A model generated the notes under the pieces. It saw only the letters and a list, made by a program, of their open reading frames with translations. It did no database searches and was not told where the DNA came from. Shown here one piece after another: positions 38,387 through 43,502 of a stretch of 43,502 nucleotides of DNA; the first letter of the stretch is position 1, and each line of letters starts with the position of its first letter. Both the position numbers and the translations under genes were made by a program. Source of the stretch: Nitrospirales bacterium (GTDB taxonomy: Bacteria; Nitrospirota; Nitrospiria; Nitrospirales; UBA8639); NCBI GenBank assembly GCA_021604105.1, contig BQIW01000033.1:1-43502 (forward strand), in the 5' to 3' direction.

Positions 38387-38463
38387 GGGCCCATAGCTCA
38401 GTTGGTTAGAGCGGCTGACTCATAATCAGTTGGTCCCAGGTTCAAGTCCTGGTGGGCCCACCA
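38387..38463 (+). tRNA. tRNA with CAT anticodon, probably tRNA-Ile2 (lysidine type)
   Basis: 77 nt including an encoded CCA. Acceptor GGGCCCA (38387-38393) pairs with TGGGCCC (38453-38459), followed by discriminator A. The D arm GCTCAGTTGGTTAGAGC, anticodon stem-loop GCTGA-CTCATAA-TCAGT and T arm CCAGG-TTCAAGT-CCTGG are all intact. CAT can be elongator Met, initiator or Ile2. An initiator would lack the first acceptor pair, but here it is G1-C72. The C4-G69 and C5-G68 pairs are those TilS recognises in tRNA-Ile2, so Ile2 is favoured. Elongator Met cannot be excluded. Confidence 0.93.
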
Positions 38464-39302: not shown

Positions 39303-39739
39303 GATGGTGCGAGTGGGCCGGGTGGCCGCTCACGGACATTTTCGTGAGAGGAAAGTCCGGACTCCAAAGGGCAAGGTGCTGGGTAACGCCCAGGCGGAGC
39401 AATCCGACACCAGCGCCACAGAAAATATACCGCCAATGGCAAATTCCTCTGTTTTTGCCAGGTAAGGGTGAAATGGTGGGGTAAGAGCCCACCGCGCCTG
39501 TGGTAACACAGGTGGCAGGGTAAGCGTCACCTGGAGCAAAACCAAATAGGGGGACGATTCCCGGTTTGGTGAAGGAAGCGATTTCTTCCAGGACTGGGGG
39601 AGAGGCCGGCCCGGTCGAGGTCCTCGGGTAGGTTGCTTGAAGCCTAGGGTAACCTAGGTTCCAGAGAAATGGTCACCACCGGATGAAACTCGTTTCATCT
39701 GGTACAGAATCCGGCTTACAGGCCCACTCCTTCACCATC
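39303..39739 (+). ncRNA. rnpB: RNase P RNA, class A
   Basis: The catalytic RNA that matures tRNA 5' ends. GAGTGGGCC (39311-39319) pairs with GGCCCACTC (39721-39729), and GATGGTG (39303-39309) pairs with CACCATC (39733-39739), so P1 is long with an internal bulge. Hallmarks are GAGGAAAGTCCGGACTCC, GGTAAGAGCCCACCGCG, TAGGTTGCTTGA of the CCA-binding P15 region, and AGAGAAATGGTCACC with ACAGAATCCGGCTTAC at the 3' side. About 437 nt is a little long for bacterial class A, mainly from the extended P1. No intrinsic terminator is seen. Confidence 0.97.
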
Positions 39740-39985: not shown

Positions 39986-40063
39986 GTCCCCATCGTCTAG
40001 CCTGGCCTAGGACGCCGGCCTTTCAAGCCGGCAACACGGGTTCGAATCCCGTTGGGGACGCCA
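39986..40063 (+). tRNA. tRNA-Glu (TTC anticodon)
   Basis: 78 nt with encoded CCA. GTCCCCA (39986-39992) pairs with TGGGGAC (40053-40059), discriminator G. The anticodon stem-loop CCGGC-CTTTCAA-GCCGG has TTC, and the T arm is ACGGG-TTCGAAT-CCCGT. The body closely resembles E. coli tRNA-Glu. In some bacteria tRNA-Glu also supplies 5-aminolevulinate for tetrapyrrole synthesis; this locus does not say whether that occurs here. Confidence 0.97.
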
Positions 40064-41737: not shown

Positions 41738-42258
41738 AATAGGCCTCTTAAAGAATAAAAGACTTATAAAAAATTCCGATGAATAAGCTGATGATCGCCG
41801 ATATTCAGGCATTGATTCCTGCCGAGGAAGAAACGTGGAAATGGACAAGAGCGGCAGGGAAATACCCCAGTCACTCTTACTGAAGGGAAGTCGTGGAAAA
41901 GCACCGACAGTGCATTCATGGGGGTAGAGAGAAGAGAATGCAAGGAAGTTAAATTTTCTTTGAATGCGCATTCTTATATAGAGGGAGGATATCTCTGTCA
42001 ATGTCACAATTTGTGGAAAAGGTGTGAACGGTGGTGGATAATTTTATCGTGAAGTCACAATGTCCTTTGTGAAAAGGAAATTCACGATGTGAATTCTGGG
42101 GATAAATATTTTTTTGAAGGTTTTGAAAAAAAGAGTGAGGCAAGCCACAGAACATGTCATGTATGGAGATAGAAGGTAGATGCTGTCCGGGTCCTTCGCG
42201 TATATTCCTTCGGAAATATGGTCCGTATCGAGGATGAATTTACCATAAGAATAACCAT
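41738..42258. other. Divergent regulatory region between cupin and J-like genes
   Basis: No gene is supported here. The region is AT-rich, with the cupin-direction promoter (41973-42001). It has a near-palindrome CACAATTTGTG (42006-42016). It also has a perfect 7-bp inverted repeat AATTCAC-GAT-GTGAATT (42079-42095). GTCACAAT followed by GTG-AAAAGG occurs twice (near 42004 and 42055), as if a regulator site were repeated. No ribosome-binding site is seen just before the gene at 42259. Confidence 0.45.
41973..42001 (-). promoter_or_regulatory. Strong sigma-70 promoter on the reverse strand, toward the cupin gene
   Basis: On the reverse strand TTGACA (41996-42001) and TATAAG (41973-41978) are 17 bases apart: 6/6 and 5/6 matches to consensus. 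Transcription would begin near 41966, leaving about 229 bases of leader before the cupin ATG. Confidence 0.65.
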
Positions 42259-43164
42259 ATGATTGACGGATTAAACTATTACCAAATTCTGGGTATTCCT
42301 GAAGATGCACTGCTGAAGGAAGTGCAGAGCGCATGGCGCAAATTTGTCAAAGAAAATCATGAGGATGTCGTCCCACCAGCAGAACGACAAGCCGCCAAGG
42401 AAAGGATGTTCAGGGTCAACGAAGCCTATGCCGTGCTCAGTCACGAAGAAAAACGGGCTGATTACGATAACGGGTATATGCTCAACGGCGGGTCAAAAAT
42501 TGAACTTGTCAGGAGTCGGGTTAGAAGAGCTAAAGACATCATTCTCAGAGATCGATCGCTCATTACCAGAGAAGAGATGAAGCTGATCGAATCCATTATC
42601 GATTACCTGGATAGAAGTACCCAGGAAAGGTGTTTTGCCTGGATGGCCGATATCTTATGCGAGCGTCCGGAAATGGCCAAACATGTGGTGACGTCGGCGT
42701 TTGATGAGCAACTGTTAGGGGTTAATACCCATTTACTCGACAGGCTCTTAGAGCAAGCGCCCTACGCCATGACATGGGAAAAAATCTACCTCTATGGAGA
42801 AGAGATTCTCGGGATTGCCGGGAAGGAAAATAAGGAAAGAAATTACAACCAGCTTGCCCGTATCCTGTGTCACCGGCTTGATTTGGCGAAACACTTTGTG
42901 TACCCGTCATTCCAGGAGCAAGCCTCCGGTTGTGAAAGCTGTTTGCTGCCAACATTATTAAAAGTGGCCCCCCATGAAATTACGCAGGATCATTTCAATG
43001 ATTACATTGATACCGTCCACAGCATGCGGTGGATTGTTTACGGGCAGCTCAGAAACTATAACGAGCAGGCCGTTTCATGGATACTGAAGGCCAGGCCCGA
43101 TCTCGTCAGAAAGCCGGAAGAGAAGCCAGCACCGAAGGAGTTGCCACTTCCCTTGCGGTCATGA
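42259..43164 (+). CDS. J-domain-like protein with HED for HPD and a duplicated helical repeat
   Basis: 301 residues. About 3-72 resemble a J domain: GLNYYQILGIPEDALLKEVQ, AWRKFVKENHED and NEAYAVLSHEEKRADYDNGY. The invariant HPD is H34-E35-D36 here, so activation of an Hsp70 ATPase is doubtful. Residues 130-172 and 200-242 align without gaps, offset by exactly 70 residues, with about 20 identities in 43 (I-L-C, R, A-K-H, F, E-Q, G, L-L, A-P and T positions). A shorter third copy may begin near 266. I know of no name for this repeat. The start at 42259 has no clear ribosome-binding site. Function unknown. Confidence 0.75.
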   Translation: MIDGLNYYQILGIPEDALLKEVQSAWRKFVKENHEDVVPPAERQAAKERMFRVNEAYAVLSHEEKRADYDNGYMLNGGSKIELVRSRVRRAKDIILRDRSLITREEMKLIESIIDYLDRSTQERCFAWMADILCERPEMAKHVVTSAFDEQLLGVNTHLLDRLLEQAPYAMTWEKIYLYGEEILGIAGKENKERNYNQLARILCHRLDLAKHFVYPSFQEQASGCESCLLPTLLKVAPHEITQDHFNDYIDTVHSMRWIVYGQLRNYNEQAVSWILKARPDLVRKPEEKPAPKELPLPLRS

Positions 43165-43233: not shown

Positions 43234-43451
43234 TAGATTTAACTTGGGTGCTATGGTTTGGGACTTCTTCCAGAGGGCCAGGTAAGAAGTGTTCCGATAG
43301 AATTTTGCATTTAGTCCTAATTTTCAAGGCTTAATGGATTAAATCCTTGAATATTTAATGAAAGCTTTTTCCGGCATTTAGGGCAATTGGTGCTATCCAA
43401 ATCATTATTTTTGGAATCCTTTACCAATAAACCCAAAAACGAGGCTGATCT
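43234..43451. other. AT-rich spacer to the right edge
   Basis: No gene is supported. TTCAAGG (43323-43329) and CCTTGAA (43345-43351) make a 7-bp inverted repeat with a 15-nt loop. GAGG at 43441 can serve the start at 43452. Confidence 0.4.
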
Positions 43452-43502
43452 ATGATGATCAATAGTGAAAACGAACCCACAAGGGCATTGACATTTTCTT
43501 TT
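43452..43502 (+). CDS. Possible start of a gene that continues past the window
   Basis: ATG 43452 has GAGG seven bases upstream and opens a frame of 17 codons (MMINSENEPTRALTFSF) up to the edge. It is too short to compare to any family. An ATG one codon later (43455) is equally possible. Confidence 0.4.
   Translation, partial: MMINSENEPTRALTFSF

Follow-up and report, generated by a model that had tools for sequence, protein, structure and literature searches.

A gene on the forward strand of the window, by which we mean the whole 43,502-nt stretch of contig BQIW01000033.1 (assembly GCA_021604105.1, a Nitrospirales bacterium of UBA8639), encodes a protein of 301 residues in which an N-terminal J domain carries HED in place of HPD and is followed by a tail that is helical throughout and contains a 70-residue repeat. 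The motif is the same in all 21 orthologues, the gene is under purifying selection, and the family is confined, within the genomes searched, to one family-level clade of Nitrospirales, bacteria of the nitrite-oxidiser type. With a recognisable J domain whose HPD is non-conservatively replaced, the protein falls within the published definition of type IV (pseudo-) J-domain proteins (JDPs) (PMC13254874), and it is a new architecture inside this recognised kind. A first-pass annotation had proposed a new adaptor family: the fusion of J domain and repeat does define a family of its own, while an adaptor role is reasonably supposed. The features, in window coordinates, are:

42259..43164, + strand: HED J-protein gene, 301 codons plus stop, with 21 orthologues
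42274..42468, + strand: J domain, residues 6–70, matched by Pfam DnaJ and at the same coordinates in the genome search
42358..42366, + strand: HED tripeptide in place of HPD, residues 34–36, CAT GAG GAT, invariant in 21 orthologues
42472..42540, + strand: junction and first tail helix, residues 72–94, with the conserved columns NGGSxxELVRxRVRxA; linker entropy 0.445
42580..42789, + strand: helical repeat 1, residues 108–177, from the offset-70 self-match; the least conserved, entropy 0.868
42790..42999, + strand: helical repeat 2, residues 178–247, the best-conserved part of the tail, 35 of 70 columns invariant
43000..43113, + strand: half-length third repeat, residues 248–285, from unit profile, self-match and model helices 243–255 and 262–278
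43114..43161, + strand: C-terminal Pro/Lys/Glu-rich tail, residues 286–301, predicted unstructured (pLDDT 45–57), with the conserved ending ELPxPLRS

The start codon is backed by an N-terminal M-I that is invariant among orthologues and by DNA identity that falls upstream of the ATG. The upstream alignment of genus members revealed no obvious Shine-Dalgarno sequence ahead of the gene. Two upstream DNA blocks, GGGGATAAATATTTTT and CTTCGCGTATATT, are conserved in eight genus members and lie at window positions ~42098–42115 and 42196–42210, ~150 and 55 bases ahead of the ATG. Elsewhere in the window, a bacterial class A RNase P RNA gene (39310–39734, + strand; Rfam RF00010, 319.9 bits) is flanked by tRNA-Met (38387–38463) and tRNA-Glu (39986–40063), and an open frame on the minus strand (43317–43502), which runs past the contig end, has several CxxC-like pairs and is zinc-binding in look.

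The head is a J domain by profile, scoring 51.8 bits with Pfam DnaJ (PF00226) on residues 6–70, where the cut-off is 27.8. It is the sole credible match of the full protein in Pfam and NCBIfam; of the further parts of class A/B DnaJ, neither the C-terminal substrate-binding domain nor the class A zinc centre was matched in these collections. HPD is absent between helices II and III; translation confirms the HED that the first-pass annotation had read there, and H34, E35 and D36 are each invariant in the 21 orthologues, down to 67% identity. Among the 20 intact copies, all differences in the three codons are synonymous (CAT/CAC, GAG/GAA, GAT/GAC). No orthologue has HPD, and the motif is therefore no single-strain change; a single-strain error or pseudogene is rejected by the 21-way conservation and by dN/dS. 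Pairwise dN/dS, where dS is usable, is ~0.03–0.13 in J domain and tail alike, and column entropy rises from the J domain (0.41) through repeat 2 (0.55) and repeat 3 (0.65) to repeat 1 (0.87). ‘Degenerate’, as the head had been called, is thus the wrong word for a domain more conserved than any other part. A J-only profile scored the HED family at 158–175 bits and the next-ranking sequence, an ordinary HPD DnaJ, at 69 bits, a gap that marks the HED head as a separate, tight lineage. By residue mapping, W26, R27 and M50, invariant in the 21 orthologues, correspond to DnaJ Y25, K26 and F47, and helix II has fewer basic residues than in DnaJ, with Q23 and S24 at the positions of R22 and K23; acidic residues outnumber basic ones in the domain (14 D+E, 10 K+R). 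In a low-confidence model of the J domain, helix II stops at residue 33 and HED remains in the loop.

The tail repeats itself at an offset of exactly 70 residues, as had been claimed. Its top ungapped self-match pairs residues 111–172 with 181–242 (24/62 identical) at a BLOSUM62 score of 108, which 1000 shuffles did not approach (mean 26.3, sd 4.1, maximum 46); the earlier count of about 20 identities over 43 positions is about right, with 19 found in residues 126–168. The offset is kept in 20 of 20 ungapped orthologues, with 17–26 identities over the 62 positions. The shortened third copy, previously a suspicion, exists: a unit profile matches it at 43003–43113 (model positions 2–35, E 1.9e-6), a match that is not independent since the profile held third-copy rows of three species, and independent support comes from the second-best self-match of the tail, RNYNQLA/RNYNEQA at offset 71, and from the same helix pair recurring in the tail model. 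Residues 79–301 gave no described repeat family and no credible Pfam, NCBIfam or PDB sequence match, so that the repeat is indeed unnamed at this level; no HEAT or ARM family exceeded the cut-off by sequence, an ARM model reaching E 0.046 in one of 20 members. A PDB sequence match to EF-hand domain-containing family member C2 (E 5e-4, 64 residues) is isolated and unsupported by fold searches and was taken as chance. Weak Pfam/NCBIfam tail hits to Baculo_FP, glucosamine isomerase and pgl, and a PADLOC Cas10d match, were discarded as scattered, below cut-off or trivial in score.

While the sequence of the repeat is new, its fold probably is not. An AlphaFold2 model of the tail alone (pLDDT 90.8, pTM 0.83) places helices, in tail numbering, at 25–37, 40–56, 58–74 (with one break) and 80–87 in unit 1, at 94–105, 110–126, 128–143 and 150–157 in unit 2, and at 164–176 and 179–199 in the third copy, and so predicts two helical hairpins per 70-residue unit. 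The closest solved fold is the TOG domain 4qmh (VIA-align Z 11.0, rmsd 3.7, 182 aligned), a Z of ~11 being below the diagnostic level and within the common range for helical repeats; Kap121, the PP2A scaffold and designed armadillo proteins, all HEAT/ARM solenoids, are also near. No named fold stood well clear of the helical-repeat background in this comparison, and Foldseek against PDB and viral models returned nothing at E < 0.001. The predicted fold is a general HEAT/ARM-like alpha-solenoid, a term which, given the Foldseek result and the Z of 11, is a description and makes no claim of membership.

Orthologues were found by protein search and tail profile, one each, in 21 of 196 genomes of the order, all in a single family-level group (f1); the carriers include Nitrospirales NPIRA01, 02, 04 and 06 and the UBA8639 MAG. 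Among 395 genomes of the phylum, the tail profile matched f1 members only, and no tail relative outside this clade was found in these samples of order and phylum genomes, viral contigs and plasmids. J proteins of a sister Nitrospirales family (f3; L125 125–1198, L126 446–1312), which as candidate relatives had similar Pfam scores, were rejected: they combine HPD J domains with a nuclease-like tail, a C-terminal domain that by eye resembles an ERCC4 nuclease. Within f1 the gene is patchy, with several genomes lacking it, and on a DnaK tree its presence is scattered (five changes; deep forks weak), which may reflect one gain with losses or transfer inside the clade. In one copy (G027) the frame is broken in the second repeat, with HED still present; the other 20 are intact. 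Another genome (G033) carries, at L064 1461–1569 (G033:C39), a lone 109-bp second copy of the gene’s 3' end, 79% identical and apparently a pseudogene fragment; the C-terminal 24-residue match that it produces was rejected as a shared docking motif.

The carriers have an ordinary Hsp70 complement. Only DnaK and HscA were found in the f1 genomes checked, carriers and non-carriers alike, with no dedicated or extra Hsp70; further short partial matches are probably other actin-fold proteins. By motif search, DnaK is ordinary around R167, the LLLD linker and P419 in both sets of genomes; in one genome P419, and in HscA the linker, escaped the pattern. There is thus no visible compensation for HED, and a compensating DnaK change at the J-contact motifs was rejected on this motif search. 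Each carrier genome has six or seven J-domain matches, and the other J domains readable by motif search, which did not capture HscB and a small number of other diverged domains, are all HPD in the same and in related genomes (27 and 24 sequences). Neighbourhood comparison identified no operon partner common to all genera. In part of genus g1 and in g9 the order is dnaG, a zinc-ribbon protein gene, a SUMF1-like gene, a divergent cupin gene and then the HED gene, which elsewhere adjoins unrelated genes; with no neighbour common to all genera, it is a stand-alone gene.

Published work on HPD bears on what the glutamate might do. Replacement of H or D abolishes stimulation, and HPE is said to be the sole tolerated replacement of HPD (PMC13254874); the classical loss-of-function changes are in H or D, both of which HED keeps. 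In the DnaJ–DnaK complex, H33 bonds L391, P34 packs on P419 and D35 bonds R167 (PMC8215388), and in simulations of P34A helix II is extended and H33 and D35 are disoriented (PMC13012618). The evidence found in the literature on the role of P34 is of these two kinds, simulation and structural contact. Non-HPD J proteins are a recognised fourth type of unknown logic, within which Pam16 inhibits Pam18; the review that sets out the type regards the origin of motifs other than HPD, by evolutionary accident or by selection, as enigmatic, and raises the question of competition for Hsp70 versus mere recruitment (PMC13254874).

We favour a lineage-specific type IV J protein, in which a solenoid grips a partner and the head docks without normal ATPase stimulation, a reading for which and against which the balance is about even. 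The tail, a short HEAT/ARM-like alpha-solenoid of two and a half 70-residue units, would serve to bind a specific partner, for which the highly conserved faces of repeat 2 are the most likely contact surface. The head, a folded J domain, may still dock on DnaK or pair with one of the cell’s HPD J proteins, and the change of proline to glutamate would keep ATP hydrolysis from being triggered normally, so that DnaK might be recruited to, or excluded from, the bound partner and the protein would act as a tether or regulator. That the head docks yet stimulates poorly is suggested by the published contacts and simulations and by the constraint under which the head has evolved, and HED would plausibly weaken stimulation while part of the contact is kept; we infer Hsp70 docking, weak or no stimulation, and partner binding. 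The favoured reading draws on the invariance of HED under low dN/dS in the most conserved domain, on the HPD of the readable J domains around it, on an ordinary DnaK with no dedicated Hsp70, on the solenoid model and the lack of a conserved operon partner across genera, on the P34–P419 contact and P34A simulations, and on the precedent of a fourth type with its inhibitory Pam16. Against it, H and D, which directly contact the DnaK linker and R167, are retained; HPD/AAA retains stimulation in some systems (PMC13012618), so that HED might work; the low-confidence J model has no helix extension of the P34A type; and the tail’s fold matches are under the diagnostic level for helical repeats.

An unlikely alternative is a functional class C J protein for which HED is a tolerated variant and which hands a solenoid-held client to ordinary DnaK and effectively drives ATP hydrolysis. 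Besides the invariant H and D, the invariance of W26, R27 and M50 speaks for it, as do the tolerated HPE of DjlB/DjlC and an active designed J analogue without HPD (PMC13254874). HPE, however, pairs with the diverged Hsp70 HscC (PMC13254874, PMC8215388), of which the f1 genomes hold no equivalent; P34 constrains the orientation of H and D in simulations (PMC13012618); and an acidic residue here takes the place of one that packs on DnaK P419 (PMC8215388), itself kept. It is also improbable that the head, while keeping the J fold, no longer belongs to the Hsp70 system and serves the solenoid as a plain module for structure or protein–protein interaction, as DnaJB13, with HPL, sits in the radial spoke (PMC13254874). 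The loss of basic residues in helix II (Q23, S24) and the net acidity would suit such a role, but the invariance of H34, D36 and several Hsp70-facing positions would be unexpected had the contact been lost. Finally, a decaying DnaJ paralogue en route to a pseudogene, to which the patchy presence (21/196, with several f1 genomes lacking the gene), the disrupted frame in G027 and the fragment in G033 might point, is very improbable and largely refuted by dN/dS, given 20 intact copies and an invariant HED.

A bolder version of the type IV reading, which we regard as possible but doubtful, takes HED as a selected working signature, with a head that binds ordinary DnaK in a non-hydrolysing manner, as a naturally occurring brake or anchor of Hsp70, while its private solenoid steers it. 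Whatever the reading, a change of proline to glutamate that spares H and D has become fixed, under strong purifying selection, in a clade with 20 intact copies whose genomes have plain DnaK and HPD J proteins, and whether HPD departures are selected or accidental can be tested with a single protein, a single DnaK and a single residue.

Several known systems resemble parts of this protein. HEAT/ARM alpha-solenoids such as TOG domains, Kap121 and the PP2A scaffold share with the tail model its predicted stacked helical hairpins; the HED tail differs in having no profile match over the cut-off and a 70-residue unit of two hairpins. AtcJ–AtcC of Shewanella, involved in cold adaptation, likewise ties a bacterial J domain to a dedicated non-J partner module, but AtcJ combines a working J domain with a tail of 21 aa and belongs to an operon of four genes (PMC6715715), whereas the HED protein has its tail fused on, reads HED at the motif and is part of no conserved operon. 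Escherichia coli DjlB/DjlC are, like the HED protein, class C J proteins of bacteria in which the motif is not HPD; they change D and not P, are tail-anchored and use HscC (PMC13254874, PMC8215388), while HED carriers have no additional Hsp70, diverged or dedicated. Type IV proteins, among them Pam16, DnaJB13 and exported Plasmodium JDPs, are also close. Pam16 has DKE/DKS and pairs with Pam18, and DnaJB13 has HPL on a class B body (PMC13254874); the HED protein is bacterial, is changed in the proline alone and has a repeat tail for which no sequence relative was found. HPD J proteins that could take part in a Pam16-like pairing are present in the carriers, and a non-hydrolysing HED head, if real, would give bacteria a counterpart to Pam16-type control that has no kinship with Pam16.
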